A DNA stretch of 64,000 bases. Source: Micromonospora radicis (GTDB lineage: Bacteria; Actinomycetota; Actinomycetes; Mycobacteriales; Micromonosporaceae). The stretch lies in contig NZ_QXEC01000025.1 of NCBI RefSeq assembly GCF_003583405.1, positions 1 through 64,000 on the forward strand. The letters are read 5' to 3'. Of the stretch, positions 1,721-56,180 are shown one piece after another. The number at the start of each line of letters is the position of its first letter. The first letter of the stretch is position 1. Position numbers and translations under genes: made by a program. The notes below the pieces were generated by a model, which saw nothing but the letters and a program-made list of their open reading frames with translations, made no database searches and was not told the DNA's origin.

Positions 1721-1732
1721 GGACCGGCCAGG

Positions 1733-3349: not shown

Positions 3350-4462
3350 CTACGCGGAGCCGGACCCGGGCCCGACCGCCACCGCCGGATCGCCCCGCAG
3401 GACCTGGTCCACGTCGAACCGGACCGGCCGGTCCAGCTGGTCGTACCGGCAGGAGCGCGGGTCACGGTCGGGCCGCCAGCGGACGAACCGGGCGGTGTGC
3501 CGGAACCGGTCGCCCTCCATCGCGTCGTACGCCACCTCGACCACCAGTTCGGGGCGGACCGGCTCCCACTCCAGGTTCTTGGTGCCGGTCCACCGGCTGA
3601 CCCCACCCGGGATGCGTTGGCCCCGCTCGTGGTCGCCGTGCACCCACGGGTGCTCCGCGCCGACGTCGCGGTAGGGGGCCAGTTCGTCCAGCAGCTCGGC
3701 ACGGCGGGCCATGGTGAACGAGGCGCTCACGCCGACGTGGTGCAGTAGCCCCGCCTCGTCGTAGAGGCCGAGCAGCAGCGAGCCGACCACCGGGCCGGAC
3801 TTGTGCCAGCGGAACCCGGCGACCACCACGTCGGCGGTGCGGCCGTGCTTGACCTTGTGCATGAGCCGCTTGCCCGGCTCGTACGGCAGGTCGGCCGGCT
3901 TGGCGATCAGCCCGTCCAGCCCGGCGCCCTCGAACACGTCGAACCAGCGGCGGGCGGTCTCGGCGTCGGTGGTGACCTGGGTGACGTGCACCGGGGGGGT
4001 CACCCCGCCCAGGGCCTGCTCCAGCCGGGCGCGGCGGGTCGGGTAGGGCGCGTCGAGCAGGCTCTCGTCGTCGAGGGCGAGCAGGTCGAAGGCGACGAAG
4101 TCGGCGGGGGTGGTCTCGGCGAGCAGCTTCACCCGGGAGGCGGCCGGGTGGATGCGCTGGCCCAGCAGCTCGAAGTCGAGCCGGGGTGCGGCGTCCGGGC
4201 CGTCGCGTCGGATCACGATCAGCTCGCCGTCGACCGCGCACCGCGTCGGCAGCTGCCGGCGGGCCTGCTCGACCACCTCCGGGAAGTAGCGGGTCATCAG
4301 CTTGCCGCCCCGGCTGGCCAGCTCCACCTCGTCGCCGTCGCGGAAGACGATGCAGCGGAAACCGTCCCACTTGGGCTCGTAGGTCATCCCCGGCCCGGTC
4401 GGAATCGACGCGACGCTGCGGGCCAGCATCGGTTCCACCGGCGGATTGATCGGCAGGTCCAC
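3350..4462 (-). CDS. ATP-dependent DNA ligase (LigC/LigD ligase-domain type)
   Basis: 370 residues from GTG 4462, chosen because the product then begins VDLPINPPVEPMLARSV like mycobacterial LigC; the frame stays open upstream to 4684 without family-like sequence. Nucleotidyltransferase motif I is EPKWDGFR with the adenylated Lys, motif III/IIIa lies around VDGELIV, motif IV is GLDGLIAK and motif V is MHKVKHGRTADVVV. A C-terminal OB-fold domain follows. Such ligases seal nicks or breaks in end-joining or base-excision-type repair. No Ku or primase gene is nearby, so this is the stand-alone form. Start is moderately certain; function is firm. Confidence 0.88.
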   Translation of the reverse strand: MDLPINPPVEPMLARSVASIPTGPGMTYEPKWDGFRCIVFRDGDEVELASRGGKLMTRYFPEVVEQARRQLPTRCAVDGELIVIRRDGPDAAPRLDFELLGQRIHPAASRVKLLAETTPADFVAFDLLALDDESLLDAPYPTRRARLEQALGGVTPPVHVTQVTTDAETARRWFDVFEGAGLDGLIAKPADLPYEPGKRLMHKVKHGRTADVVVAGFRWHKSGPVVGSLLLGLYDEAGLLHHVGVSASFTMARRAELLDELAPYRDVGAEHPWVHGDHERGQRIPGGVSRWTGTKNLEWEPVRPELVVEVAYDAMEGDRFRHTARFVRWRPDRDPRSCRYDQLDRPVRFDVDQVLRGDPAVAVGPGSGSA

Positions 4463-4597
4463 GGCGTCAGTCAACCAGACGGCACCGACACCGGTGCGGC
4501 AGATCACTGCCGGCGGGTGGGTGGCGTGTCCGCCGATGGTTCGTTCCGGCCGTACCGGGCGGATCAGAGAACCGCAGGTCAGAGCTACTTTCGCGGG

Positions 4598-8074: not shown

Positions 8075-8134
8075 CCCGTCCCACCCACGGATCGCATCAT
8101 CGACCCTGTCGGTCGAATCGACGAAGGAAGTCCT

Positions 8135-11970: not shown

Positions 11971-11994
11971 CCACACCACAGAGGAGCGCGGTTC

Positions 11995-13761
11995 GTGACC
12001 GAGTCCGGGCGAGTCCAGTCGGAAGAGATCCCCAAGGCGGTGGCCGAGCCGTCCGGGCTGGTGGACGTCTATCGGCGGGTACTGAGCCCGCAGACCCGGC
12101 GCGCCATCGCGAAGAAGATCAGTCCGCGTACCCGGTATCAGCTCAAGCAGTGGGTCGCCCGGGCCGCCCAGGACACCCAACTGGCCGCCCGTCGCGGCGA
12201 ACGGCTGGCCCGGCGGCAGCCCGAGCTGCTGGCCGGCGACGACCGGGCGGTGGTGGTCGCCGACCAGGCGCCCCGGATCGCCCTGGTCGACCCGAACGTC
12301 ACGCCCCTGCGGGTGCGGACGGCGAACCTGGCGGCGGTGACGGCGGCACTCGACGCGGCCGGCGTGGCGTACTTCCAGGTCCGGGGCGCCTCCCACCGCA
12401 CGTCTGTGGTGGCGGTGGACGCCGTGGACCGTGATCGGGTGTACGCCGCGCTGGCGACCGCCTGCGCACGCGTGCCCGGCTATGTCACCGAGGTACGACC
12501 GGGGGAGCAGCCGCCGGGTGCGGGATTCGAGTCGAAGTCGTGGAAGCGGCTGGCCGACGCCGGGGTGCTGCGGCTGACCTGGTACCGGACGGACCCGCGC
12601 CACCGGCTGGTGCTGGGCCAGGCGTACGGCTGTGAGGTGGAGTTCTGGCAGCGGCAGGGGGCGGCACTGGTGGCGCCCCGACCGAATCCGGTGGCGGAGC
12701 AGGTGGACGCGGCTGCCCCGCCGGTGGAGGCCGCCGAGTCACTGTTCACCGCGCTGGCGCCGGTGACCGCCAACACGACGGTCCGGACCAGGCCGGAGTT
12801 CGCGGCGCCGCGCCCGGTCGACGTTGGGTTCCCGGTCGACGTGGTCTACACCTGGGTCGACGGTACCGACCCCGCCTGGCTCCGTCGGCGGGCCGCGGTG
12901 ACCGGCGTGCCGTACCACAGCGAGGCAGCGAATGCGGCACGGTTCCTCAGCCGCGACGAGCTGCGCTACTCGCTACGGTCGCTGCACCTCTTCGCACCCT
13001 GGGTGCGCCACGTCTACCTGGTGACCGACGACCAGGTGCCGTCGTGGCTGGACCGGTCGGCGCCGGGCATCCAGGTGGTGAGCCACCGGGAGATCTTCGC
13101 GGACCCGGCGGTGCTGCCCACGTACAACTCGCACGCCATCGAGAGCCAGCTGCACCACATCGACGGGCTCTCCGAGCAGTTCCTCTACTTCAACGACGAC
13201 GTCTTCCTCGGCACCGAGGTGCTGCCCTGGGACTTCTTCCTGGCCAACGGGATCGCCAAGTTCTTCCCGTCGCCGGCCCTGGTGCCGCCCGGCGCGGCGA
13301 CCGCCGAGGACATCCCCTCCTCGGCGGCGGGCAAGAACAACCGGGCCCTGATCGCCGAGCGCTTCGGCACCGTGCTGACGCAGAAGATGAAGCACATGCC
13401 GCACGCGCTGCGGCGCAGCGTGCTGTACGAGATCGAGGAGACCTTCGCCGCCCGGCACCAGCAGACCGCGGGCAGTCGCTTCCGCGCCATGACGGACATC
13501 TCGATCGCGTCGTCGTTGCACCACTACTATGCGTTCCACAGCGGGCGGGCGGTGCCGGGGGAACTGCGGTACGCCATCGCCGAGTTGTCCCATCCCGACA
13601 CCCCCGCCCGGCTCGCCCATCTGCTGGCCCGGCGGGACCGGCACGTCTTCTGCCTGAACGACGCGTTCTCCACGGAGGAGGACCTGGCCGCTCAGCTTAG
13701 GATCGTCACGCCCTTCCTGGACACCTACTTCCCGGTGCCCAGTCCGTGGGAGAAGGTCTGA
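11995..13761 (+). CDS. Stealth family hexose-1-phosphate transferase (paralogue 3)
   Basis: 588 residues from GTG 11995, with AGAGGAG about 9 bases upstream. The first 90 residues are basic and helical and unique to this copy. Then come the shared N-terminal domain (LAAVTAALDAAGVAYFQVRG) and Stealth CR1 VDVVYTWVDGTDPAW, CR2 LRYSLRSLHLFAPWVRHVYL, CR3 YNSHAIESQLHHIDG with LYFNDDVFLG, and the terminal HVFCLNDAFS. It is the last gene of the operon and is followed by a hairpin. Substrate specificity is unknown; paralogues 1 and 3 share the KNNR and TQKMKH motifs more closely than paralogue 2. Confidence 0.9.
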   Translation: MTESGRVQSEEIPKAVAEPSGLVDVYRRVLSPQTRRAIAKKISPRTRYQLKQWVARAAQDTQLAARRGERLARRQPELLAGDDRAVVVADQAPRIALVDPNVTPLRVRTANLAAVTAALDAAGVAYFQVRGASHRTSVVAVDAVDRDRVYAALATACARVPGYVTEVRPGEQPPGAGFESKSWKRLADAGVLRLTWYRTDPRHRLVLGQAYGCEVEFWQRQGAALVAPRPNPVAEQVDAAAPPVEAAESLFTALAPVTANTTVRTRPEFAAPRPVDVGFPVDVVYTWVDGTDPAWLRRRAAVTGVPYHSEAANAARFLSRDELRYSLRSLHLFAPWVRHVYLVTDDQVPSWLDRSAPGIQVVSHREIFADPAVLPTYNSHAIESQLHHIDGLSEQFLYFNDDVFLGTEVLPWDFFLANGIAKFFPSPALVPPGAATAEDIPSSAAGKNNRALIAERFGTVLTQKMKHMPHALRRSVLYEIEETFAARHQQTAGSRFRAMTDISIASSLHHYYAFHSGRAVPGELRYAIAELSHPDTPARLAHLLARRDRHVFCLNDAFSTEEDLAAQLRIVTPFLDTYFPVPSPWEKV

Positions 13762-13767
13762 CACGAC

Positions 13768-13806
13768 GGTGGCCGGCCGCGCCCTCACGGGTGCGACCGG
13801 CCATCC
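13768..13806. terminator. Hairpin between convergent genes
   Basis: TGGCCGG (13770-13776) pairs with CCGGCCA (13797-13803), with further GC pairing inside (GCGCCC with GGGTGC). It lies between the end of the glycan operon and the end of the lipoprotein gene on the other strand. There is no U-tract, as is usual in such genomes. Possibly bidirectional. Confidence 0.5.
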
Positions 13807-13819
13807 GGCTGACGGTGGG

Positions 13820-14491
13820 TCAGTAGTCGTAGTCGGAGTCCGAGCTGTCCGACTTGGTCTTCGACGGCGGGGCTACCGCCTTCGGGGTGCCCTTGGGCAG
13901 GCACTCCAGGTTCTTGCTGCCGTCCGGGTTGACCACGAACCAGGTACCGCCGACGCCCTGGCCCTTCCACTGGCCGGGCTTCTTGTCGCCGATGTAGGTG
14001 TAGAGCGGCCAGCCGTCCAGCGTGATCTGCCGGGTGCCGTCGGGTCGGGTGACGGTGCCGACCGCGTCGTCGGAGACGCCCTTGAGTTTCGGGTTGCCGT
14101 CGGTCAGGGCCGGCGGCCACACCTCGGCGCACTGGTCCTCGCAGTTGGTGGCCGGCGGGTCGTTGCTGTCCCGGTCGAAGCGGTACAGCAGGAAACCGTC
14201 CTGGTTGACCACCGCGCTGCCCATCCGGGGGAACTTCTTGCCGGTGAGGCTCTCGGTCAGGTCGACCCCGTCGGGCAGCGGGGCGTCGTTCTCGGCTTCG
14301 GCACCCGGTGACGCCGACGCGCCCGGCTCAGCGCTGGCCTCGGGATCCGCGGTCGCCGTGGGGTCGGCCGCGGCGACAGCGACCGGCTCTGCCGCGCCGG
14401 GGTCCGCTGCGTTGTAACCGGCGGGCGCGCAGGCCGTCAGTGCGACCATGGCGCTCACCGCGACAACGACGGTCCGCTTCATCTCTGCCAC
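13820..14491 (-). CDS. Lipoprotein with secreted-repeat (PF03640-type) domains
   Basis: 223 residues. The lipobox VALTACAPA puts the lipidated Cys at about residue 21. An Ala/Glu-rich linker runs to about residue 80. Two copies of the short beta repeat of the Lipoprotein_15 family follow: GSAVVNQDGFLLYRFDRDS ... CEDQCAEVWPPAL and ITLDGWPLYTYIGDKKPGQW. These domains occur in many actinobacterial surface lipoproteins; their role is not established. The gene sits just downstream of an ECF sigma/anti-sigma pair on the same strand and could be part of its regulon (inference). Confidence 0.85.
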   Translation of the reverse strand: MAEMKRTVVVAVSAMVALTACAPAGYNAADPGAAEPVAVAAADPTATADPEASAEPGASASPGAEAENDAPLPDGVDLTESLTGKKFPRMGSAVVNQDGFLLYRFDRDSNDPPATNCEDQCAEVWPPALTDGNPKLKGVSDDAVGTVTRPDGTRQITLDGWPLYTYIGDKKPGQWKGQGVGGTWFVVNPDGSKNLECLPKGTPKAVAPPSKTKSDSSDSDYDY

Positions 14492-14614
14492 GTGCCCTCC
14501 TCATACTTGACAAGTCACCGAGAAGTACGGGGTTGGGGCTGTCAAGGTTGAAGTCGAAACGGTGGCTCATTTCACAACTCGTCGATTGAACCGGACCCCG
14601 CGACCGTTCGTGTG

Positions 14615-14645
14615 GGCCGTACGCCGGCCGTACGCCGGCCGTACG
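14615..14645. repeat. 11-bp short tandem repeat
   Basis: GGCCGTACGCC twice plus nine bases of a third copy, in the gap between the lipoprotein gene start and the anti-sigma gene end. No function is evident. Confidence 0.8.
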
Positions 14646-14705
14646 TCACCGTCACCGTCGGCCGGGCCGGGACTCGCCCGCACCGCCCGGAAACGACGCC
14701 GACGT

Positions 14706-14738
14706 CGAAGGCCCGCCTCGGATCGAGGCGGGCCTTCG
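14706..14738 (-). terminator. Strong hairpin downstream of the anti-sigma gene
   Basis: A perfect 15-bp stem, CGAAGGCCCGCCTCG (14706-14720) with CGAGGCGGGCCTTCG (14724-14738) and a GAT loop. It begins 23 bases past the stop of the anti-sigma factor gene, so it is its likely intrinsic terminator despite lacking a U-tract. Confidence 0.75.
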
Positions 14739-14760
14739 AGGTGCTGAGGTACGTCGGCGG

Positions 14761-15540
14761 TCAGTTGGCGGGCACCGTCACCAGCGGCGTACCGACACCC
14801 TTGCTGTCGACCTGCTCCACCTGGAAGTGCTTCACATCGTCCAACTTGGACGACGTCGCGGCGGACAGGGCCAGGCGCTGCGGATTGCTGATCGTGCCGT
14901 AACCGTCCGGCGGCACCGCCCAGCTGGAGATGATCTCCGTGCTGGCGTCCTTGCGGACCACCACCAGCCGGCACTCGCGGGGGCCGGGCAGCTTGGCCAG
15001 GGTGAAGGCCACGTTCGTGCCGAAGTCCTTCGAGTCCAGGAAGAAGGTCGCCTGCACCCCGGTCTCCGGGTCGGTGGCGTTGACCTGCTTGCCCTCCTGC
15101 TCGGTACCGCCCTGCCCCGGGTCACCGGGGTTGCCCGGGCGGCTGTTCGGTGGCTCCAGCGTGCCGAGGGTGGGCCCGGCGACCGGCGGTGGCGCGGTGC
15201 CACCGTCGGCCAGGTTACTGAACACCACCCCGGTGACCCCGCCGAAGACCACCACGGCGGCCGCGGTCGCCAGGATCTGCCGGAACCGTGCCCTGCGGCG
15301 GTGCGTACGCATCGCCACCAGGGTGCGGTCCAGCAGGATCGGATTCGAGTGGGTCTGCTCCAGCGCCGTCACCGACTCCGCGTCGATGTCGGAGAGCAGC
15401 CCGACCACCGGCACCATCGTCTCCAACTCGGCGGCGCACGCCCAGCAGGAGGCGAGGTGTTCCTCGAACCGCTCCATGTCCTGGGCGTCCAGCACGCCGA
15501 GGGCGTACGCGGCGACGTCCATGTGGTCAACCCGACTCAT
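14761..15540 (-). CDS. Anti-sigma factor with zinc-binding N-terminus
   Basis: 259 residues from ATG 15540, overlapping the sigma gene stop by four bases (ATGA). Residues 1-45 contain the zinc anti-sigma motif: HMDVAAYALGVLD then HLASCWACAAELE (HxxxCxxC), which would bind the sigma factor in the cytoplasm. A single membrane segment follows at about residues 95-115 (ILATAAAVVVFGGVTGVVFS), then an extracytoplasmic Pro/Gly-rich linker and a globular beta domain. Same plan as RslA-type anti-sigma factors: the outer domain senses, the inner domain releases sigma. Confidence 0.88.
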   Translation of the reverse strand: MSRVDHMDVAAYALGVLDAQDMERFEEHLASCWACAAELETMVPVVGLLSDIDAESVTALEQTHSNPILLDRTLVAMRTHRRRARFRQILATAAAVVVFGGVTGVVFSNLADGGTAPPPVAGPTLGTLEPPNSRPGNPGDPGQGGTEQEGKQVNATDPETGVQATFFLDSKDFGTNVAFTLAKLPGPRECRLVVVRKDASTEIISSWAVPPDGYGTISNPQRLALSAATSSKLDDVKHFQVEQVDSKGVGTPLVTVPAN

Positions 15541-45786: not shown

Positions 45787-45818
45787 TCTCATCCGTCACC
45801 GGGAACACTCGGGGGCAT

Positions 45819-45891
45819 GCGGACGTAGCGCAGTTGGTAGCGCATCACCTTGCCAAGGTGAGGGTCGCGGGTTCGAGTCCCGTCGTCCGCT
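45819..45891 (+). tRNA. tRNA-Gly (GCC)
   Basis: 73 nt. Acceptor GCGGACG pairs with CGTCCGC, anticodon loop TTGCCAA reads GCC, T arm GGGTTCGAGTCCC. CCA is not encoded. Confidence 0.95.
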
Positions 45892-45925
45892 CGGAGCTGC
45901 CGCCACGCGTGACGGGGGCAACCTC

Positions 45926-45996
45926 GGTGGGGTGGCCGAGAGGCGAGGCAACGGCCTGCAAAGCCGTGTACGCGGGTTCAAATCCCGTCCCCACCT
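45926..45996 (+). tRNA. tRNA-Cys (GCA)
   Basis: 71 nt. Acceptor GGTGGGG pairs with CCCCACC, anticodon loop CTGCAAA reads GCA, T arm GGGTTCAAATCCC. CCA is not encoded. Confidence 0.95.
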
Positions 45997-46009
45997 CGGT
46001 AAAGAGCAA

Positions 46010-46084
46010 GGGCGATTGGCGCAGTGGGAGCGCGCTTCCTTGACACGGAAGAGGTCACTGGTTCAAACCCAGTATCGCCCACCA
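46010..46084 (+). tRNA. tRNA-Val (GAC), copy 1
   Basis: 75 nt with encoded CCA. Acceptor GGGCGAT pairs with ATCGCCC, anticodon loop TTGACAC reads GAC. Identical to copy 2 at 46728. Confidence 0.95.
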
Positions 46085-46099
46085 GTTCGATGATCAGTT

Positions 46100-46133
46100 G
46101 AAGCCCGCTACCGGTGTTCCGGTGGCGGGCTTC
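46100..46133 (+). terminator. Terminator of the first tRNA cluster
   Basis: 15-bp stem (46100-46114 with 46119-46133, one G-U pair), TGTT loop, 16 bases after the tRNA-Val CCA. Confidence 0.85.
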
Positions 46134-46193
46134 CTGTCTTGCGCGAGCGGCGTCAGGCTGACCCTGGCCCCGATCAGCTCCGTCGGCCGCCGG

Positions 46194-46463
46194 TCACAGC
46201 GGCGGCGCCACGTCCCGACGCTCCTCGACCCGGCGGTACTGCGCGGGCTCCTCGACGCGGCGGTACTCCGCCGGCTCCTCGGTGGTGGCGACCACCTGCC
46301 GGCGGCGCCCCCAGACCAGCTGGGTCATGATCAGGCCGACCACGCCCGCCGCCATCAGGATCCAGCCGACCACCGTCAGGTCGAGACCGCCGATGCTGGC
46401 GTTGACCGCGAAGGTGAGGATCGCGCCTACCGCGAGCAGAAAGATGCTGGTTCCGATACCCAT
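46194..46463 (-). CDS. Small DUF6458-type membrane protein
   Basis: 89 residues from ATG 46463 with AAGGAGG upstream. Two membrane helices (SIFLLAVGAILTFAVNAS and VVGWILMAAGVVGLIMTQLV) then a cytoplasmic tail with a repeated YRRVEEPA motif. Matches the DUF6458 family by size and plan. Function unknown. It is wedged between the two tRNA groups on the other strand. Confidence 0.82.
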   Translation of the reverse strand: MGIGTSIFLLAVGAILTFAVNASIGGLDLTVVGWILMAAGVVGLIMTQLVWGRRRQVVATTEEPAEYRRVEEPAQYRRVEERRDVAPPL

Positions 46464-46615
46464 GACAGCCTCCTTTTCCCAGGGATGCGGTGTGCTGTCG
46501 AGAAGGGTCTGTACCCCGCCGGTGACCGGCGCAACCACCGACGGTGTGGGGCCGGCGCCCCGGGCGATCTTGCCATCGGGTACAGTTGGCCCGTCCCCGG
46601 CGGTACGCGGGGCAG

Positions 46616-46688
46616 GCGGACGTAGCGCAGCTGGTAGCGCATCACCTTGCCAAGGTGAGGGTCGCGGGTTCGAATCCCGTCGTCCGCT
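46616..46688 (+). tRNA. tRNA-Gly (GCC), copy 2
   Basis: 73 nt; differs from the copy at 45819 by single bases in the D loop and T loop (GAATCC for GAGTCC). Anticodon GCC. CCA is not encoded. Confidence 0.95.
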
Positions 46689-46727
46689 CGCGATCCATCC
46701 ACACCCTCGGGGTGTGGCGGTCACCAC

Positions 46728-46802
46728 GGGCGATTGGCGCAGTGGGAGCGCGCTTCCTTGACACGGAAGAGGTCACTGGTTCAAACCCAGTATCGCCCAC
46801 CA
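46728..46802 (+). tRNA. tRNA-Val (GAC), copy 2
   Basis: 75 nt with encoded CCA, identical to copy 1. Its 3' end abuts a gene remnant and the conflict-system island. Confidence 0.95.
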
Positions 46803-46814
46803 GAGATCCACGGC

Positions 46815-47116
46815 CCGGCCGGCGCAGCGCGATGGCGGCGAGTTGCTCGGCCTGGGGCAGCTGTTCGGGTCCGGTCAGGTGGTGGGCGGTCGCGTGGTGG
46901 CCGTCCTCGGTCAGGGCCCGCACCGCGACCGCGACGAGGTCGGCCTCGTGTACCCGGGCCCGCCGCGCCTGTGGGTGGAACCGGTGCAGCATGGCGTAGC
47001 TGTGGCGCCCAGGCGAGGGTGTCGGCGGCGAACCCGCTCGCCCGGAGGAGGGTGCACTGGGCCGCCGAGGCGGCGAGGAGCCCTTCCAGGTGGGCGTGGG
47101 AGCCGAGGATGCCGCC
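46815..47116 (-). pseudogene. Remnant of an NmrA-like NAD(P)-binding protein gene
   Basis: Reading on the minus strand from 47116, one frame gives LEGLLAASAAQCTLLRASGF then AADTLAWAPQLRH; at about 46992 the homology moves to another frame: RRARVHEADLVAVAVRALTE then GPEQLPQAEQLAAI. Together these match the C-terminal half of NmrA-like NAD(P)H-binding proteins (VHEADIAAVAVRALTEDGH is a hallmark). The N-terminal Rossmann half is missing. The remnant ends a few bases from tRNA-Val. Frameshifted and truncated, so it is a pseudogene. Confidence 0.75.
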
Positions 47117-47166
47117 GTCCGGCTCGGGGCCGGGTCGGACTCGCCCGTCCCCGCCCCGACCGACCA

Positions 47167-47229
47167 TGTTGATCATGAGGTTGCCGGCAGGGTAAGCGCT
47201 TACCGCAACCGGCAACCTCATGATCAACA
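47167..47229. repeat. Large extragenic palindrome with GATCATGA arms
   Basis: Perfect 21-bp inverted arms, 47167-47187 (beginning TGTTGATCATGAGG) and 47209-47229, around a 21-base centre that itself contains GGTAAGCGCTTACC, a 14-bp palindrome. The layout resembles the 63630-63707 element. It lies between the NmrA remnant and the STAND gene end. It could double as a terminator for the minus-strand gene. Confidence 0.9.
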
Positions 47230-47233
47230 CGAC

Positions 47234-47268
47234 CGGGGTGGGGAGGGAGGGGAGGGAGGGGGAGGGGG
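47234..47268 (+). repeat. G-tract run (possible G-quadruplex)
   Basis: Seven runs of three to five G separated by single T or A bases, just past the stop codon of the trypsin-STAND-WD40 gene (stop at 47269-47271, minus strand). In the transcript of that gene it is a C-rich tail. Confidence 0.75.
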
Positions 47269-50200
47269 TCAGGTGTGGAGGGTGAGGGCGAGTAGGCCGC
47301 GGTCCAGGCCGACCAGCAGGGTGTCGCCGACGGTGCAGCAGGTCAGCGCCGGATGGTGGACGGGGATCGTGCGTACGGACCGCCCGGTCATTGGATCCCA
47401 GATCCGTACCGTGCGGTCGCGGCTGGTCGAGGCGAGCAGATCCCGACCACCGACCCGCACCAGCGCCAGACCGGTGACGGCCGCGGTGTGCCCGTTGAAC
47501 CAGCGGACCGGCTGGCCCCACTCGGCGTCCCACATCCGGATCGTGCTGTCCGCGCTGGCCGACACCAGCATCCGCCGCCCGGCCACGGTGATGCCGCACA
47601 GGGCGTTGACCTCGTCCTGATGGCCTTGCTGGGTCCAGACCGGAGTGTCGGCGCCACCCCACAGCATCAGGGTGCCGCTCTTGTCCGCCGAGGCGAGCGC
47701 GACCACGCCCGGCCACTCGACGGTCGCCAGGGCGGTCACCCAGGCGTGCGTGACGTGCCCGAGCAGCACCCCGAGGGCGGCGCCGGTGCGGGGATGCCAC
47801 AGCCGGATGGCCTGGTCGTCGCCGGCCGAGGCGATCAGCAGCCGGCCGTCGACGACCAGGGTGCAGACCGCCGCGACCTCGCCGTAGTGGCCGCGCATCT
47901 CACCCACCTGTGTGCCATCGGTCAGCTCCCACCAGGCGACCGAACAGTCGTCCTGGGCCGTGTAGAGCAGTGGCTCGTCGTCGTCGGCGACCACGCACAG
48001 CGCGTTCACCGCCGCGGTCTGGAACTCCAGCAACCGCTCGCCGGTGTCGACGTCCCAGCGGATCACCTGGCCGTCGGTGCTGCCGGAGGCGACCCGCGCC
48101 GGCCCGGCGCCCGGCACCCGGCACAACGTGTTCACCGGACCGAACCGGTCCTGGGCGGCGACGGTGTCGGGCTGGCCACCGGCCGGATCCCACAGGCGTA
48201 CGGTGCCGTCGTCCCCGGCGGTGGCGAGCATCCGGTGTGTCGCGGTGCGTAGCTCGCAGACCGCGCGGATCCAGCTGGCGTGCCCGCGCAGGCTCGGCCG
48301 GCTGCTCCAGGTCGAGACCTCCCAGAGCCGGATCAGGCCGTCCTCGCCGGTGGAGACGAGCAGGCGGCCGTCGGCGGTGTCCACGGTGCACAGATCGGTG
48401 ACCGGCCCACCGGTGTCGAGAACCCGCACCGGTTCGCCGGTCAACGGATCCCAGAGCCGCACCGTGCCGTCGTAGCCGGCCGAGGCGAGCAGCGTCGCGT
48501 CGGGGGTACGGACCGCGTACAGGGTGGTGACCCAGCCGTCGTGACCGGCCAGGGTCAGTGTCGGCGCACCGGCCGCGGTCGGTTCCCAGATCCGGATCAG
48601 GCCGTCGTAGCCGGTGGAGGCCAGCAGGTGCCGACCACCGGCCGGCACGTAGGTCACGGCGGTCACCCAGCCGGCGTGGCCGGTCAGGACGTACCGCTGG
48701 GCACCGGTGACGGGATCCCAGACCCGTACCGTCCGGTCGTCGCCGGCCGAGGCGAGCAGGTCACCGTCGGGCAGCGGGAGGACACAGATGTTGCGTACCC
48801 AGTCGTGGTGTCCGAGCAGTTCGTGGCGGCGCTGGCCGGTCCGCGGCTCCCACAACCCGATCGTGCCGTCGTGGCTGGCGGTGGCGACCAACACCTCACC
48901 GGCGCCGGTGCGTACCGCGCAGACCCCGCGGATGGTGTCGTCGTGGCAGTTGAAGACGGCCTCGGCCTGGTTGGTCAACGGATCCCAGAGCCGGACGGTG
49001 CCGTCGTCGCCGACGGAGGCGAGCAGCCGTCGACCGTCGACCTCGACGGCGGCGACGTCGTAGACGGGCTGGAGGTGTCCGTCGAGCACGCTGCGTTCCT
49101 GCCGCGGTGGGGTGTCTGCCCACCGGGCCCGGTACGGTGCCCGATCGGCGGTGATGCCGCTGCCCAGACCGTCGAGGCAGTCGACGACCGAGAAGAGCGC
49201 CGCCCGCTCGTCGGGTGGCGCCGCGACCGCCAGCGGGGTGCGTTGTAGCAACCTGGCCCGGGCCTGCGGCAGCGGTGCGGTCGGTGGCGGTTCCGCGTCG
49301 ACCACCATGAGCAGCCGGTCCAACTGCGCGTGGAGCAGGTAGTCGTCGTCGGCGAGGAGGTGTTCGACCATCCCGGCGCGGGCAGCGTGCTGGGGCAGCG
49401 ACCGGAGCAGGTAGTCCGGGGCGTCGGCCCAGCCCGCGTCGCGGGCCAGGTCGAGCCAGGCCGAGACCAACCTGCGCTGGTCCTGGCGCCGATGCCCCCG
49501 GGCGTCGCGGTCGGCCAGCAGCGCCTCGTTGAGGGCCTGGTGGAACAGGCGGTACGCGGGCTGTGCCCCGCCGCCCGTCTCGACCAGGAAGTTCGCCGCC
49601 GAGGTACGGGCGAAGCCGCCCAGCTCCGCCTCGCTGACGGTGCCGCCCAGCGCGGTCACCGCGGCCTGCCACAGTGGCAACGGAAGCCCCGGTGTCTCGG
49701 CGTACGCCAGGGCGGTCAGCGCCAGCCGCGCGGAGGTGGTACCCGCCGTCGGTAGCCCGGCGAGGTAGGCGTCCAGTGCGTGGGCGACGGTGGCGGTGAA
49801 GGAGACCGAGGCCGGGTCGACCGGCGCGGTGTCGCGCAGCGCGTGTGCCCGTGCGACCAGGCCGGCGACGAGGAAGTTTCCCTTGGCCAGCGCGGCGATG
49901 CGCCGGGCGAGTGGGCCGGCGGCCCCGGGCTCGGCGTACGGGTTGGCGGGTCGTTCGGCGCCGAGCAGTTGCAGCGTCGCCTGCGCGTAGTTGACCAGGT
50001 CGGATTCGGCGAAGTACTCCGGTGCGTCGAGGTCGATCAGGTCGGCGTCCTCCCCGAAACGGGCGATCAGGTCGCCCTGGTCGTCGCTGCGCCGGGTGCC
50101 GACGACCACCCGGACCCCGTACCGGCCGCAGTCGCGGGCCAGCGGCAGCAGGATGTCGTCGACGATCCGTCGGGCGTGGCCGGGATCGGCGGCCTCGTCC

Positions 50201-51321
50201 AGGGCGTCGACGACCAGGGTGAACCGGGCGGCGCGCCGGTGCAGCCGGTCGCGCACCGCCGAAGCCAGGTCGGCCGGGTTGGCCGGCAGGTCGACGGCGG
50301 CGGCGCGGGCGATCTCGGTGGCCACCTCGATGGCGGTCTTGCCCTTCACGTGCACGGCGCAGGAGACGGAGCCGACCGTGGCCCGTACCGCGACGTCGTC
50401 GACGGGGAGGGCGGCCTGGATCTGTCGGTCGGCGGTGGTGACGATCCGGCCCAGAGCGGCGGACTTGCCCACCCCGGGGGAGCCGGTGACCAGCAGCGGC
50501 CGGATGACCGGAGTCGCCTGGTCGAGCCAGTCGACGATTCGGCGCAGTGCCCTGGTGCGGCCCCGGAACCGGGCGCCGCCCTCGGTATCCACCGCCACCC
50601 CGCGGGCCCGGGGCAGCCAGTGCCGACCGGCCTCCCCGTCGGTGTTCAGGGTCCAGCCCCAGGCGGACAGGGCGGTGTCGTCGGCGTCCGCGACCCGCCA
50701 CGCGGACAGCATCCGCAGCTTCATCTCGGGCAGCTGCTCGTCGGCGTGGTGCAGGGTGACGGCCTGGCCCTTGCCCGTGCCGTCGGCGGAGACCACGACG
50801 CCGATCACCGCCTGGTACTCCGGTGACCAGACGGCGCCGCCGCTGAACCCCTTGCCCAACTGGCTACCGGCAGCACTGTCGATCATGATGCGTCCCCAGC
50901 CGCCGATCTCGGTGACCGTGCCGGTGGCCGGGGTACCGCCGGGTACCCCGGTGGGGAAGCCGTACGCCCAGAACGGCCGGTCGACCAGGGACCGGGGCTC
51001 CAGGCAGCGCAGCCGGGCCGGTGCGACGGTGACCGGCACGGGTTCGACGAGTTCGAGGACGACCAGGTCGACGTGCGCGGACCGGTGCCCGTCGTGCAGG
51101 CACTGGCGGACCCGGCGTCGGTCGAAGTAGCCGACCCTGGACGCGCGGGGGAAGGCGACCGAGAGGTCGTCGTGCAGTTGGCCGTCGGCGGCGAACGCGA
51201 CGTGGTGGCAGGTGAGCACGAGGTTCGCGTCGATGACGATGCCGGTGCCGACCGGGATGTCCGGGTTGCCGTCGCGGTGCAGGGCGACCGCCCACGGGCT
51301 GTCGTCAGGGGCTGCTGTCAC
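47269..51321 (-). CDS. Trypsin-like peptidase / STAND NTPase / WD40 conflict-system protein
   Basis: 1350 residues from GTG 51321. Residues 1-200: trypsin-like serine protease with intact triad His40 (LTCHHV), Asp85 (HVDLVVLEL) and Ser160 (KGFSGGAV); no signal peptide, so cytoplasmic. Residues 250-620: STAND/NACHT-like ATPase with Walker A GSPGVGKS (280-287) and Walker B FTLVVDALDEA. Residues 735-1350: about fourteen WD40 blades (repeated VRLWDP, LLASAGDDGT), i.e. likely two propellers. In this class the repeats sense a ligand, the NTPase oligomerises and the protease is unleashed. It is 15 bases downstream of a Trypco1-like gene. Target unknown. Confidence 0.9.
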   Translation of the reverse strand: MTAAPDDSPWAVALHRDGNPDIPVGTGIVIDANLVLTCHHVAFAADGQLHDDLSVAFPRASRVGYFDRRRVRQCLHDGHRSAHVDLVVLELVEPVPVTVAPARLRCLEPRSLVDRPFWAYGFPTGVPGGTPATGTVTEIGGWGRIMIDSAAGSQLGKGFSGGAVWSPEYQAVIGVVVSADGTGKGQAVTLHHADEQLPEMKLRMLSAWRVADADDTALSAWGWTLNTDGEAGRHWLPRARGVAVDTEGGARFRGRTRALRRIVDWLDQATPVIRPLLVTGSPGVGKSAALGRIVTTADRQIQAALPVDDVAVRATVGSVSCAVHVKGKTAIEVATEIARAAAVDLPANPADLASAVRDRLHRRAARFTLVVDALDEAADPGHARRIVDDILLPLARDCGRYGVRVVVGTRRSDDQGDLIARFGEDADLIDLDAPEYFAESDLVNYAQATLQLLGAERPANPYAEPGAAGPLARRIAALAKGNFLVAGLVARAHALRDTAPVDPASVSFTATVAHALDAYLAGLPTAGTTSARLALTALAYAETPGLPLPLWQAAVTALGGTVSEAELGGFARTSAANFLVETGGGAQPAYRLFHQALNEALLADRDARGHRRQDQRRLVSAWLDLARDAGWADAPDYLLRSLPQHAARAGMVEHLLADDDYLLHAQLDRLLMVVDAEPPPTAPLPQARARLLQRTPLAVAAPPDERAALFSVVDCLDGLGSGITADRAPYRARWADTPPRQERSVLDGHLQPVYDVAAVEVDGRRLLASVGDDGTVRLWDPLTNQAEAVFNCHDDTIRGVCAVRTGAGEVLVATASHDGTIGLWEPRTGQRRHELLGHHDWVRNICVLPLPDGDLLASAGDDRTVRVWDPVTGAQRYVLTGHAGWVTAVTYVPAGGRHLLASTGYDGLIRIWEPTAAGAPTLTLAGHDGWVTTLYAVRTPDATLLASAGYDGTVRLWDPLTGEPVRVLDTGGPVTDLCTVDTADGRLLVSTGEDGLIRLWEVSTWSSRPSLRGHASWIRAVCELRTATHRMLATAGDDGTVRLWDPAGGQPDTVAAQDRFGPVNTLCRVPGAGPARVASGSTDGQVIRWDVDTGERLLEFQTAAVNALCVVADDDEPLLYTAQDDCSVAWWELTDGTQVGEMRGHYGEVAAVCTLVVDGRLLIASAGDDQAIRLWHPRTGAALGVLLGHVTHAWVTALATVEWPGVVALASADKSGTLMLWGGADTPVWTQQGHQDEVNALCGITVAGRRMLVSASADSTIRMWDAEWGQPVRWFNGHTAAVTGLALVRVGGRDLLASTSRDRTVRIWDPMTGRSVRTIPVHHPALTCCTVGDTLLVGLDRGLLALTLHT

Positions 51322-51336
51322 GGGCCACCGCGTCCG

Positions 51337-51666
51337 TCAGCGCCGCGGGCCGGTGCCGTTTGCCGGGGCTCCGTCGGGGGACCAGGCGAGGGTGACCTCG
51401 AAGTTCGCCTCGCCGGTCGTCTTGGCGACCACCCAGTTCGCCGTGCCGGTCGCCTTGATCCCGAAGCGCACCTCGACGGCGTCCGGGGAGACCGCCTTCA
51501 CCTGCTCCAACAGTTCCTTGGCGGCGGCCACCGCCGGGGCGGCGGACTCCCGTACCCAGCCGGCGACGTCGCCGACGCCGGCGGGTTGGAAACCGGCCGG
51601 TGGGTCGACCTCGATCAACGCGACGGTTTTGTCGTCGACCTGGTAGCGGACCACCTCAGACTGCAC
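51337..51666 (-). CDS. Trypco1-like (CU044_2847 family) protein
   Basis: 109 residues from GTG 51666, GGAGG six bases upstream. It reads VVRYQVDDKTVALIEVDPPA, a WVRESAAPAVAAAKELLEQV helix, then AVEVRFGIKATGTANWVVAK. This layout is that of the CU044_2847 / trypsin-co-occurring domain 1 family, defined by its link with trypsin-STAND proteins. It is directly upstream of and co-directional with such a gene here. Probably a partner, inhibitor or substrate of the protease. Confidence 0.8.
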   Translation of the reverse strand: MQSEVVRYQVDDKTVALIEVDPPAGFQPAGVGDVAGWVRESAAPAVAAAKELLEQVKAVSPDAVEVRFGIKATGTANWVVAKTTGEANFEVTLAWSPDGAPANGTGPRR

Positions 51667-52030
51667 CGGTCACCTCCGTGGCGTTCCCGAAATGGGCAGG
51701 AGCGGCAGGGCGTCGGGCAATTCCCTCCGGCCGCCGCTCGCCGATCAGTCATGCTGCCCGCTGTCCTTGCCGCTTGGCAACGGCCGAATGCCTGATCAGC
51801 GCCGCCCGCTCCGTACAGGTGTTTCAGTCGGGCCGTCCACGCTGGACCGCTGAAGATCCACTCAACCTTGCTGTCGGTTTTCGGCAGCCGGATTGGTGAC
51901 CTTGCGCTTGCCGGACACCGTCGGCAGAATCGGCCCGGGCGCGAGGCCGCCCCCCTTGCTCGACCACCCCTCCGAGTTTCGATCATCACCGTGAACGTGG
52001 TGAAAGCTCGTGCCACAGAGGAGCATCCGC
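51667..52030. promoter_or_regulatory. Divergent control region of the conflict island
   Basis: About 360 bases between two divergent starts, less GC-rich than its surroundings around 51840-52030. It must hold promoters for both units. A small inverted repeat TTGCC-GCTT-GGCAA (51767-51780) and a TCACC/GGTGA pair (51986-52003) are visible; no strong promoter consensus. The shared region suggests coordinated control of the two units. Confidence 0.4.
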
Positions 52031-52771
52031 ATGCCGGAAAAGGAACTGACGCTCGTTGACCGGTGCATTCTCATCACGTTAATGATCAAAGCAACTCCGT
52101 TGCCGCAGACGTACATCACCAAGGTCGCCGGAATCGGCATCAAGCCGGAGCACCGCCGTAAGCTGATCGCCGCCGAGCTGATCGAGGTGGCGGAGAAGCC
52201 GATCACCCTGAAGCTGACCGACAAGGGTTGGCATCGGGCCGCCGAGGAGTTGGGCGGGGAGCCGCCGAAGGGTGCGGGCGCGGGCGGCGGCACGCTCTAC
52301 GTCGTACTGGACTTCCTGCGCCGGCTGATCGACCACTCCGGCACCCGGGCCGACGACCTGTTCCGGTTGCAGATCAAGGCGGACGACGTCGCCTCGGCCG
52401 TGGCCGCACCGGCCCCGCACCCCGCCCCGGCGGCCCCGCACCCCGCCGCGCCGGCCCCGGACTCCGCCGCGCCGGCCCCGCACTCCGCCCCGGCGGCCGC
52501 GACGGGCCCGGTCGAAGCGGTGACCCGGGTCCGGCAGGCATACCACGAACTGGCCGCCGGCCCCGGCGCGTACGTCATGCTCGCCGACCTGCGTACCGCG
52601 CTGGCGGACCTGTCCCGCGCGCAGGTCGACACCGCACTGGTCCAGCTCAACCGGGAACGCAACGTCCACCTCGTGCCGGAGTCCAACCAGAAGGTGCTCA
52701 AGCCGCAGGAGCGGGCCGCGGCGGTGAGCATCGGCAACCAGGACAAGCACCTCATCGCCATCTCGTCATGA
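52031..52771 (+). CDS. Winged-helix protein with Ala/Pro linker
   Basis: 246 residues from ATG 52031 (AGAGGAG 8 bases upstream; ATG 52010 possible). Residues 1-75 look like a winged helix (ELTLVDRCILITLMIKATPL ... LIAAELIEVAEKPITLKLTD). An Ala-Pro-His/Asp/Ser repeat linker occupies about 130-165. Residues 170-246 form a second small domain with LADLRTALADLSRAQVDTAL and LNRERNVHLVPESNQKVL, itself winged-helix-like. Translationally coupled (ATGA) to the double ATPase, so it probably supplies DNA or partner recognition to it. No known family recognised. Confidence 0.75.
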   Translation: MPEKELTLVDRCILITLMIKATPLPQTYITKVAGIGIKPEHRRKLIAAELIEVAEKPITLKLTDKGWHRAAEELGGEPPKGAGAGGGTLYVVLDFLRRLIDHSGTRADDLFRLQIKADDVASAVAAPAPHPAPAAPHPAAPAPDSAAPAPHSAPAAATGPVEAVTRVRQAYHELAAGPGAYVMLADLRTALADLSRAQVDTALVQLNRERNVHLVPESNQKVLKPQERAAAVSIGNQDKHLIAISS

Positions 52772-55700
52772 CCAGCGACGAGGAACGGCGGGCGCTGACC
52801 GCGTTGCGGTTCAACTGGGCTCCGACCCCCGACGACGTCTGGAAGCCGGCGCCGTTCCACGTGGCGGCCCTGCACCACGACGTGCTGCGGACCGTGCTGG
52901 ACAGCTTCGCCGAGGCGGACCGTAGCGCCGACTCCAGCCCGGTGGGCGTCGCGGTCCTCGGCCAGCGGGGCACCGGCAAGACCCACCTGCTCGGCACGGT
53001 ACGACAGGAGGTGCAGCAGCGCGGCGGGTTCTTCTTCCTGGTCGAGCTGTTGGAGGCGCGCGCGTTCTGGCACAGCACCGCGATGTCGATGCTGGCGGGC
53101 CTCGCGCGACCGATGCCGGACGGGACCACCCAGTTGCGTACCTTCCTGCGCAAACTCGCCGACCGGGTCGACGCCCCCCGGGCGGTGCGGCGCGCGGTCA
53201 CCGGTGAGACCGAACTCAGCCGGCCCGCCCTCGACGCCTTCGTCGACCTGACCCGTAAGGCGAACCGCCAGGTCGGCACGGAGTGCCAGGACACGCTGCG
53301 GGCGCTGGTGCTCTACGCCGGTGAGTCCGCCGCCCTGGAGGACGTCGGCTACGACTTCCTCTCCTCCAGCGACGAGGAGGAGCCGGGCACCCGGACCGCC
53401 TGGGGACTGCGGCGTAACCGCCGGGCACCGCAGGAGGTGGTCCGGGACGCGTCGCGGCTGCTGGCCATGGTGGCGCCGACGGTGATCGCCGTCGACCAGA
53501 TCGACCTGATGGTTGCCCAGTCGGTCAAGGCGACCACCCAGGAGGTCCGCGGCGAGATCGACTGGCAGACGTCGTTGCTGCTGGAGCAGGTGGCCAGCGG
53601 TCTGATGGCGCTGCGGGAGACCACCAAACGTTCGCTGTCGGTGGTGTCCTGCCTGCCGCAGACCTGGCGGGACGTGAAGGAACAGGCCACCGACACCGTC
53701 CAGGACCGGTTCCGGGAGGCCGCCCCGCTCAAGGAGATCCCCTCCGTGGCGGTGGGACGGGAACTGGTCGAGAAGCGGTTCGCGGTGCTCTTCGAGGAAG
53801 TCGGCTTCGTGCCGCCGTACCCCACCTGGCCGGTCCACCCCGACGCGTTCACCGAGGTGGTCGGGTTCACGCCACGCGAGCTGCTGCGCCGCGTCGACAC
53901 GCATGTCCGGGCCTGCCTGGCCGACGGCGAGGTACGCGAGCTGCGGCATCTGCTGCACGCGACCGGTGACCCGGTCGGCGCCGGCCCCGGGGCGGCCCCG
54001 GTCGGTAGGCCGAGCGCGGCGCGGCTGGCCGACGAGTTCGGCAAGATCGATTCTCGGTACGCGGAACTGATCGCCGCGGCGGATCCGGCGCCCGCGCTCA
54101 GCCAGCAGTACGAGGACGTGCGGGTTCCGGAGCTGCTGACAGCCGGGTTGACCGCGTGGATCGGTGCGCAGGACGACGCCGTCGAGGCGTTCAGTCTCGA
54201 TCCCATCCCGTTGGGCGGGAAGCCGGCCCTGCACGCCCGGCTACGGCACAGCCTCGACGAGGAGAGCGAGGACGAGGAGCACTGGTCGTTCCGGGCGATC
54301 TGCGCACCGCACCACATCGCCGCGCTCAACCGGATCCGCAACGCGGTCACCGCCGCCGGGCTCACCGAGGGCATCGCCAAGCGCAAGCTGTTCCTGTTGC
54401 GCAGCGCGGACTGGTCGGGCGGGGCCCGTACCCGTGAGGTGCTGGCGGCCTTCAAACGCGCCGGCGGCGAGACGATCGCCTTCCCCGCCGCGGACATCCG
54501 CCGCCTGGCCGCGCTGGAGCAGCTCATCCGGTACTTCGGCCTGGAGACGCTGCGGCCGTGGTTCGCCGACCGCCGACCGGCCGCCGAGATCAGCTGCCTG
54601 CGTCAGGCGCTGGGCGGCGACCGCAGGGACAGGGGGACCGCCGTTGCGATCGCCGTCCCGGTGACCGGTGCCGGTCCAGCGACGGACGCCGTCCCCGGGA
54701 CACCGGTCCACCGCGACGCGGGCCCGCCGACGGTGCCGGTGCCGAACATGCCGACCACACCGCCGACCGTGCCGGTGCCGTCGCTGAGCCCGCCGGTGCC
54801 GGTGCCGAGCCCGCCGACGCCGTCGTCGCCGAACCCGGCCGCCGGGCCGGCGCCGGCGGTCGAGTCGGTGCCGGTCTGGCCGACCGGGTCCGACGTGCGC
54901 GGTCGCCCGGCGGCCGGAATCGACCCGGAACAGCTGGACCTCGGTGCCGTCCCCGGTCGACCCGAGCCACTGCGGATCGGCCTGGAATCGCTGCGCCGGC
55001 ACACCGTGATCTTCGCCGGCTCCGGCTCCGGTAAGACCGTCCTGATCCGGCGGCTGGTCGAGGAGTGCGCGCTGCGTGGCGTCTCCGCCATCGTCCTCGA
55101 CCCGAACAACGACCTGGCACGGCTCGGCGACGCCTGGCCGGCGGCGCCCGGCGGGTGGGGGCCGGCCGACGCCGACCGAGCCGCGACGTACCTGTCCGGC
55201 ACCGAGGTGGTGATCTGGACGCCGGGTCGGCAGTCGGGCCGCCCGTTGGCGTTCCAGCCGCTGCCCCGCTTCGCCGACGTACTCGACGACCCGGACGGGT
55301 TCACCGCCGCGGTCGACGCCGCCGTCGCCACCCTCGCCCCGCATGCCCGGGTGGACGGTGGCACGGACAAGGCCCGGCTCGGTCGGGCCGTGCTGCGCGA
55401 GGCGCTGTACAGCTACGCCCGGACCGGCGCCAACGACCTGCGGGCGTTCACCGAGCTGCTCGATGACCTGCCCGACGGGGTGAGCCAGCTCGCCGGTGCG
55501 CCGAAGCTGGCGGCGGGCATGGCGCAACTACTCAAGGCCGCCCTGATCAACGATCCGCTCTTCGGCGGCGTCGGCACCCCCGTCGACCCCGGTGAGCTGC
55601 TCACCCCGGCGCCGGGGCGGCGGGCCCGGATATCGGTGATCAGTTTCGTCGGGTTGCCCGACGACCCGCAGCGGCAGAGCTTCGTCAACCAGTTGCAACT

Positions 55701-56166
55701 GGCCCTGTTCACCTGGATCAAGCGGCATCCGGCCGGGGACCGGCCGCTGGGCGGGCTCTTCGTGATGGACGAGGCGCAGACCCTCGCCCCGTCGGGCACC
55801 GTCACGGCCTGTACGCAGAGCACGCTGGCGCTGACCTCGCAGGCCCGCAAGTACGGGTTGGGCCTGGTCTTCGCCACCCAGGCGCCGAAGGCGCTGCACA
55901 ACCAGATCCCGGGCAACGCGGCCACCCAGTTCGTCGGTCTGTTGACCGTGCCGGTCCAGATCGAGGCGGCCCGGGAGGTGGCCAGGGCGAAGGGTACCGA
56001 CGTCACCGACGTCGGCAAGCTGCGTACCGGGCAGTTCTACGCCGCCGTGGAGGGGGGCCGCTTCGTCAAGATGCAGGCGCCGATGTGTCTCAGCCACCAT
56101 CCACGTAGCCCGTTGACCGCCGAGGAGGTCCTCCAGCGGGCGACCACCCCGCCGGCCGGACGCTGA
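52768..56166 (+). CDS. Double P-loop ATPase: AAA module fused to HerA/FtsK-like module
   Basis: 1132 residues from ATG 52768, overlapping the previous stop. N-terminal AAA module: Walker A GQRGTGKT (65-72), Walker B TVIAVDQIDLM (about 236) and a sensor-like SVVSCLPQTW. Residues about 440-640 are an unassigned middle region; 645-705 is a Pro/Val-rich linker. The C-terminal HerA/DUF87-like module has Walker A GSGSGKT (about 749), Walker B GLFVMDEAQTLAP (about 996), and SQARKYGLGLVFATQAPKAL, typical of HerA-type translocases. The fusion of two ATPases, coupled to a winged-helix gene and divergent from a trypsin-STAND gene, points to a conflict or DNA-processing system. Confidence 0.85.
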   Translation: MTSDEERRALTALRFNWAPTPDDVWKPAPFHVAALHHDVLRTVLDSFAEADRSADSSPVGVAVLGQRGTGKTHLLGTVRQEVQQRGGFFFLVELLEARAFWHSTAMSMLAGLARPMPDGTTQLRTFLRKLADRVDAPRAVRRAVTGETELSRPALDAFVDLTRKANRQVGTECQDTLRALVLYAGESAALEDVGYDFLSSSDEEEPGTRTAWGLRRNRRAPQEVVRDASRLLAMVAPTVIAVDQIDLMVAQSVKATTQEVRGEIDWQTSLLLEQVASGLMALRETTKRSLSVVSCLPQTWRDVKEQATDTVQDRFREAAPLKEIPSVAVGRELVEKRFAVLFEEVGFVPPYPTWPVHPDAFTEVVGFTPRELLRRVDTHVRACLADGEVRELRHLLHATGDPVGAGPGAAPVGRPSAARLADEFGKIDSRYAELIAAADPAPALSQQYEDVRVPELLTAGLTAWIGAQDDAVEAFSLDPIPLGGKPALHARLRHSLDEESEDEEHWSFRAICAPHHIAALNRIRNAVTAAGLTEGIAKRKLFLLRSADWSGGARTREVLAAFKRAGGETIAFPAADIRRLAALEQLIRYFGLETLRPWFADRRPAAEISCLRQALGGDRRDRGTAVAIAVPVTGAGPATDAVPGTPVHRDAGPPTVPVPNMPTTPPTVPVPSLSPPVPVPSPPTPSSPNPAAGPAPAVESVPVWPTGSDVRGRPAAGIDPEQLDLGAVPGRPEPLRIGLESLRRHTVIFAGSGSGKTVLIRRLVEECALRGVSAIVLDPNNDLARLGDAWPAAPGGWGPADADRAATYLSGTEVVIWTPGRQSGRPLAFQPLPRFADVLDDPDGFTAAVDAAVATLAPHARVDGGTDKARLGRAVLREALYSYARTGANDLRAFTELLDDLPDGVSQLAGAPKLAAGMAQLLKAALINDPLFGGVGTPVDPGELLTPAPGRRARISVISFVGLPDDPQRQSFVNQLQLALFTWIKRHPAGDRPLGGLFVMDEAQTLAPSGTVTACTQSTLALTSQARKYGLGLVFATQAPKALHNQIPGNAATQFVGLLTVPVQIEAAREVARAKGTDVTDVGKLRTGQFYAAVEGGRFVKMQAPMCLSHHPRSPLTAEEVLQRATTPPAGR

Positions 56167-56180
56167 CCGGCCTCGGCTGG

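Follow-up and report, generated by a model that had tools for sequence, protein, structure and literature searches.

The HerA/FtsK capture systems described in 2024 by Rakesh, Aravind and Krishnan (PMC10853773) combine an Orc/CDC6 AAA+ protein, a HerA/FtsK translocase, a winged helix-turn-helix (wHTH) protein, and both an inactive and an active restriction endonuclease (REase). These systems occur in various fusions, carry an extra domain after the AAA core, and are proposed to intercept DNA; the theme was extended in PMC12839542. The DUF4297-HerA and SIR2-HerA (Nezha) systems consist of a HerA hexamer and an effector encoded alongside it (PMC11291478). We analyzed a window, meaning the whole stretch of 64,000 nucleotides at positions 1 to 64,000 of Micromonospora radicis contig NZ_QXEC01000025.1 (assembly GCF_003583405.1). 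It contains a gene pair encoding a tandem wHTH protein (52031..52771, + strand, 246 amino acids) and an ATPase of AAA, alpha/beta, linker and HerA parts (52768..56166, + strand, 1132 amino acids), and beside the pair stand genes for a trypsin-STAND-WD40 protein and a Trypco1 protein. We consider it moderately probable that this locus is a mobile anti-invader cassette, in which a wHTH and AAA/HerA DNA-capture core has an exchangeable effector slot and a protease switch has replaced a nuclease.

Comparison with described systems

The initial annotation of this DNA had placed the pair in no named system. That statement was too strong, as Orc/CDC6-HerA capture systems with a wHTH protein and a nuclease had been described (PMC10853773), and the window module is best read as a variation on that HerA/FtsK capture theme. 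Like the capture systems, the pair has a HerA/FtsK translocase domain and a wHTH component. Unlike them, it joins the AAA module, a middle domain and the HerA module in a single chain and has its tandem-wHTH partner as a protein of its own. The nuclease of the relatives belongs to the DUF559 family, whereas the window clade lacks such a nuclease and has the trypsin-STAND pair instead. Where the capture systems have an inactive REase after the AAA core, an alpha/beta domain stands in the right place, with no family match and no match to the DUF559 set. No active REase partner was recognized in the four-gene block, and the DUF559 partner had no match in the whole M. radicis genome, with two control genomes positive (2.1e-67 and 9.1e-137). 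Because the search for the active nuclease was negative, and the AAA module and the middle domain gave no firm family assignment, the unit is described as like the capture systems and is not filed as a member. The main text of PMC10853773 makes no mention of DUF559, trypsin, AIPR, AbiU or Trypco.

Structures of DUF4297-HerA and SIR2-HerA (Nezha) were listed in the structure searches. The window resembles these systems in having HerA with a neighboring effector gene, and differs from them in the AAA and middle domains added to the HerA chain, the wHTH partner and the several effector types (PMC11291478). No SIR2 or DUF4297 domain was found in Pfam scans of the pair, Trypco1, nine neighbors and the trypsin-STAND protein (for the last, the best 25 of 50 families).

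In MADS, a methyltransferase and further mad genes accompany mad8. The PADLOC run that the initial annotation had proposed gave mad8 as the best match of the HerA half (1.8e-18), which is the likeness to MADS. Membership was rejected, since the wHTH, ATPase, STAND and Trypco1 proteins had no other mad match and the nine Pfam-scanned neighbors had no methyltransferase domain.

In the conflict systems of Kaur et al. 2020 (PMC7159879), a trypsin-like protease has a Trypco1 neighbor, and these systems are preponderant in multicellular prokaryotes. They are described there in MoxR-vWA/VMAP contexts, whereas the trypsin domain of the window is fused to STAND-WD40 and accompanies a HerA motor. In the nuclease-protease pairs of Hachiman, AVAST, Lamassu and DRT (PMC12799240), a trypsin-like protease activates an adjacent metallo-beta-lactamase (MBL) nuclease. 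The window likewise appears to have recruited a trypsin-like protease to a putative defense module, but its block has no recognized nuclease partner. Among the listed matches and passages from openly licensed PubMed Central papers, no description was found of this wHTH-ATPase pair with Trypco1 or DUF559, nor of a trypsin-STAND protein partnered with a HerA motor.

Candidate effector genes beside the pair in related loci

A species-genome scan confirmed at least 531 relatives, and the best 80 (loci L002 onward, near-identical species included) were fetched for the neighborhood comparison that the initial annotation had suggested. They come from Micromonosporaceae, Streptosporangiaceae, Pseudonocardiaceae, Nocardiaceae, mycobacteria and others. 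The wHTH and DUF559 counts were obtained by six-frame searches with profiles built from the same 80 loci. The pair was constant and the effector gene varied. Every one of the 80 relatives has the wHTH gene directly upstream of the ATPase gene, and 50 of them also have a DUF559 gene directly upstream of the wHTH gene. The six-frame search had added the wHTH gene in L058 and L062 and the DUF559 gene in L028, L039 and L044, which raised the DUF559 count from 47 to 50. The spacing between DUF559 and wHTH genes among the 47 copies first called was 30 nucleotides or less in 44, and the genes overlapped in 35.

The DUF559 family is of the PD-(D/E)XK type. Pfam named DUF559 in the three members scanned, and the acidic motif columns D288, E299 and D301 were invariant in the 39 copies aligned out of 47. 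On the ATPase tree, the DUF559 label changed 10 times against a shuffled mean of 26.2, with labels taken from the first 47 calls and near-copies favoring such clustering. The best reading of these loci is that the wHTH and HerA core keeps an exchangeable effector slot, which would usually be filled by a DUF559 nuclease.

The remaining 30 loci comprised five with trypsin-STAND, one at a contig end (L006), three with AIPR, three with DUF4365 and a partner, three with a ParA/TIR-like gene, one with a P-loop/TPR gene, and 14 with no recognized effector. The AIPR (AbiU) gene is directly downstream of the ATPase gene in L049, L070 and L081, and L070, the sole member scanned with PADLOC, matched AbiU at 1.2e-113. 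DUF4365 and its partner are upstream in L038, L048 and L075, with a PADLOC call of PDC-M02A/B for L075. The upstream gene in L059, L069 and L074 encodes a ParA-like ATPase that includes a TIR-like part; for L059, PADLOC gave PDC-M28B (1.6e-25), and the TIR match scored 25.8 bits, below the Pfam cut-off of 28. Unscanned members of these small groups were assigned by BLAST. In L051 (Actinoplanes cyaneus), a P-loop/TPR gene (1204-3081) with a weak match lies 6 nucleotides before the pair. In support of the separate effector expected in the initial annotation, a nuclease, AbiU, PDC-M02 or ParA/TIR-like gene adjoins the pair on the same strand in relatives.

Other neighbors of the pair were observed in single loci. 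L051 also encodes, after the pair (6972-8201), a member of the phosphorylase superfamily that carries a bacterial death-like domain (bDLD3). In L049 (Lentzea, 6577-14941), a pPIWI-RE gene lies 165 nucleotides before the pair, and the AIPR gene follows directly after it. Genes read from the sequence as Hsd components neighbor the module in L070. In L045 (Mycolicibacterium neoaurum), a macro-domain gene (13119-13616) begins 7 nucleotides past the ATPase stop, and a relative of it occurs nearby in L040 and L078.

Trypsin-STAND-WD40 and Trypco1 genes in the window clade

The trypsin-like protease-STAND NTPase-WD40 protein (47269..51321, - strand) has 1350 amino acids, and the Trypco1 protein (51337..51666, - strand) has 109 and matched PF19493 of Pfam above the cut-off (E 2.5e-18). 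The WD40 part was named by Pfam. The names trypsin and STAND rest on motifs and on weak PADLOC matches, those to proteases covering residues 10-192. By reading of the alignment, the trypsin-type H, D and the S of GFSG, as well as the P-loop GSPGVGKS, were conserved in 7 of 7 trypsin-STAND orthologues. The trypsin triad, the STAND P-loop and the Trypco1 neighbor are all present in the window unit.

In the ATPase tree (FastTree, with some open forks), the window and L002-L007 formed one group of seven rows with full local support amid DUF559 carriers. The Trypco1 and trypsin-STAND-WD40 genes stand divergent before the wHTH gene in all seven clade loci with enough sequence (window, L002-L005, L007 and G003); L006, at a contig end, was excluded from this count. 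The identity of the trypsin-STAND protein to that of the window was 77% in L002, 76% in L003, 58% in L004, 57% in L005 and 55% in L007. The ATPase runs parallel to it, with 76, 75, 61, 61 and 60% in the same loci. Among eight other Micromonospora genomes (G001-G008, hereafter congeners), only G003 has a full-length trypsin-STAND orthologue, and it adjoins an ATPase of the window type.

The initial annotation had named two effector candidates, this divergent unit and the middle domain of the ATPase (given there as residues 440-640). The trypsin-STAND unit is the better of the two because it accompanies the pair and belongs to the same variable block, and nothing shows the middle domain as an effector.

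Domain organization of the wHTH-ATPase pair

The wHTH gene is coupled to the ATPase gene through an ATGA overlap, and the earlier description of a coupled winged-helix and double-ATPase pair was confirmed, with AAA-type and HerA modules joined by a Pro-rich linker. Two winged helices are predicted in the wHTH protein (about residues 8-74 and 160-244), separated by a Pro/Ala linker. The first is MarR/TubR-like and showed likeness to TubR and AspA, with MarR folds scoring equally.

The AAA-type module (ATPase residues 1-392; 52768..53943, + strand) has a P-loop with Walker A at residues 65-72 and a Walker B of the form DQxD, in which Gln replaces the catalytic Glu. This DQxD (residues 243-246, 53494-53505), a natural Glu-to-Gln form, was invariant in 97 of 97 aligned proteins. 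Pfam matches of the module were all sub-threshold (AAA_16, nSTAND5, NACHT and ORC-CDC6-like, E 0.0081 for the last), and a PDB profile search returned weak general AAA and GTPase matches. The middle domain (residues 415-622; 54010..54633, + strand) has a confident alpha/beta fold within the whole-chain AlphaFold model. The fold check proposed earlier thus gave a folded middle domain and the two winged helices, and no family for the former, which had no credible match in Pfam, the PDB-profile search or hhalign against the DUF559 set. The Pro-rich linker (residues 623-715; 54634..54912, + strand) is disordered, with a predicted local distance difference test (pLDDT) score below 50 at 623-680 and 682-710. 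The HerA/FtsK-type translocase module (residues about 716-1132; 54913..56163, + strand) has intact motor motifs. HerA-half matches filled the structure-search lists for the ATPase, TrwB, VirB4 and FtsK among them. These results bear out the proposal of a HerA-type motor accompanied by a sensor-like protein.

Upstream of the wHTH gene, the divergent intergenic region contains a conserved block (51902..51930, + strand) that is readable as TTGCGC-N17-CAGAAT. Its TTGC and CA.AAT columns were invariant in 6 of 6 aligned loci, and a consensus scan made no promoter call there.

Distribution of the pair

A protein search found 1219 homologues among 7993 scored, and 120 of them were listed. The named homologues among these 120 belong to genera that we take to be Micromonosporaceae, and they are annotated only as HerA-domain, DUF87 or ATP-binding proteins. 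An ATPase match was present in five of the eight congeners. That of G003 has 83% identity over the whole protein and is of the window type. Diverged forms (48-53% over longer or N-terminal segments and 63-67% over HerA segments) occur in the other four, with a DUF559 gene adjoining. Because three of the eight congeners lack the pair and four of the five carriers hold a diverged form beside DUF559, the pair is patchy and not core. The constant core position that would have spoken against the initial annotation was not seen, nor was the constant presence within a lineage expected of a core HerA-NurA repair feature.

Outside actinobacteria, a DUF559 gene and an ATPase gene occur in the same order on a plasmid of the alphaproteobacterium Methylobacterium aquaticum, with 38% ATPase identity. 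A 226-amino-acid frame takes the wHTH position there; it was read as wHTH from place and size, with no match listed for it. Two of the three "plasmid" matches look chromosomal, namely Nonomuraea (11.85 Mb) and Tsukamurella, which carries a ribosomal operon.

Four-gene block at a tRNA-Val gene

The four genes alone fill a 9.4-kb variable block (46803..56180). It is bounded on the left by the 3' end of tRNA-Val (46728..46802, + strand, ARAGORN) and on the right by a gene for a polysaccharide deacetylase (from 56181). The nucleotide homology that the window shares with G001, G005 and G007 breaks off at 46802, where the tRNA ends. In G007, only about 0.45 kb separates the tRNA-Val and deacetylase genes, and all four genes are missing from it. 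The gap is 2.6 kb in G005 and 3.3 kb in G001, again with none of the four inside, and G003 has the same four genes at the same site. Among the eight congeners, the tRNA cluster was seen beside deacetylase/GH43 genes only in G001, G003, G005 and G007, and no tRNA was beside these genes in the stretches examined of G002, G004, G006 and G008.

Sixteen window genes were compared with the stretches of L002-L005 and L007; only the four were found, and the other 12 were not. Because presence and absence at the congener site is joint, and because these loci share no other window gene tested, the four genes behave as one unit. At the right edge, a search for a repeat of the tRNA 3' end was negative, its 28-base pattern occurring only in the two tRNA-Val genes, so no attachment (att) pair was obtained. 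The base composition did not set the block apart.

Proposed mechanism and alternative explanations

We infer a defense function and a signal from HerA to the protease. The winged helices would guide the complex to DNA that is invading or being transferred, and the AAA module would hold ATP as a slow switch. The HerA half, presumably a hexamer by analogy, would engage and pump DNA, and this engagement would license the linked effector. With DUF559, the captured DNA would be cut. In the window, the STAND/WD40 protein would read the signal, oligomerize and turn on the trypsin domain, which may cleave cell proteins or a Trypco1-linked target, giving probably an abortive response rather than DNA cutting. 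The HerA-to-STAND step is the weakest part of this mechanism. The full statement, that a HerA capture machine signals to a STAND-WD40-gated trypsin and not to a nuclease, that one core works with five or more interchangeable kinds of effector, in actinobacteria and on a plasmid of an alphaproteobacterium, and that the AAA ring is a natural Walker-B E-to-Q ATP latch, is offered tentatively and is somewhat more likely to fail than to hold.

Several observations weigh against a cassette with an exchangeable effector. The AbiU, PDC-M02 and trypsin-STAND genes may each form a system of their own, so that adjacency can reflect a common island without a common complex. The trypsin-STAND genes also run divergently and lie outside the wHTH-ATPase operon. 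The core pair may act alone, since 14 of the 80 loci, 11 of them from mycobacteria or mycolicibacteria, have no recognized effector, a verdict reached from inspection of the nearest genes (for L072, from its similarity to L068) rather than from family scans. No match was found in the phage or viral collections. The difference between the window and G007 can be either a gain in the window or a loss in G007.

On the same divergent orientation, and on the likely sensor (WD40) and switch (STAND) that the protease protein has of its own, one could argue that two independent defense systems share one island: the wHTH-AAA/HerA pair would work alone or with an unlinked partner, and trypsin-STAND-WD40/Trypco1 would be a hitchhiking STAND alarm. 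The loci without a recognized effector and the trypsin-Trypco1 pairs known from other conflict systems (PMC7159879) would suit this explanation. It is nevertheless unlikely, though the most serious of the alternatives, given that all four genes keep the same arrangement in 7 of 7 clade loci, that no other window gene tested accompanies them, and that the DUF559 gene is missing just in the window clade and a minority of others. It is improbable that the pair is what remains of a plasmid-transfer or partition system, or a motor for chromosome segregation, with no part in defense, its HerA half being a coupling-protein-like or FtsK-like pump. The TrwB, VirB4 and FtsK structural matches point that way, as does the likeness of the N-terminal winged helix to the centromere-binding proteins TubR and AspA, which is tied with MarR folds. 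Nonetheless, no transfer or relaxase domain was found in the nine window neighbors scanned with Pfam, the distribution is patchy, and DUF559, AbiU/AIPR, PDC-M02, a TIR-like protein and pPIWI-RE are among the neighbors of the pair in relatives. A housekeeping HerA pair for repair or replication at a core locus would fit the mycolicibacteria, where the pair lies among genes that read as metabolic and no effector was recognized. The congener distribution and the placement of the block, which lies at tRNA-Val in the window and occupies the rpsQ/rplN gap in Tsukamurella, make this very improbable.

If the cassette reading holds, a widespread actinobacterial pair that has so far been annotated generically gains a testable role. 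The loci would also constitute a natural experiment, with one motor core and several effectors, and with one clade that has a protease switch where its relatives hold a nuclease. If the HerA core does trigger the STAND-trypsin protein, this would show that proteolysis can be the output of DNA-translocase immunity and that a DNA motor can drive STAND alarms.

Possible insertion places and tRNA copies

In Tsukamurella (L082, 5937-16000), the rpsQ/rplN gap contains a VapBC pair and a gene for a helicase in addition to DUF559-wHTH-ATPase. In Rhodococcus (L044), the module is at a junction read from the sequence as rpsQ/rplN. This junction in the ribosomal protein operon may be a recurrent insertion place in Mycobacteriales. 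tRNA genes were rejected as a general insertion place, since only 4 of 58 other loci scanned hold one (L003, L021, L032 and L081). In L003 (Micromonospora sp. HNM0581), tRNA-Lys (4440-4513) lies 60 nucleotides beyond the trypsin-STAND gene (from 4574), and two of the seven clade loci end next to a tRNA, L003 and the window, the latter at 0.47 kb. The window also contains, at 45812-46803, a tRNA-Gly/Cys/Val cluster followed by a second tRNA-Gly/tRNA-Val pair around a DUF6458 gene. The members of this second pair are 96 and 99% copies at a distance of 0.7-0.8 kb, and the same five tRNAs are present in G001, G005 and G007.

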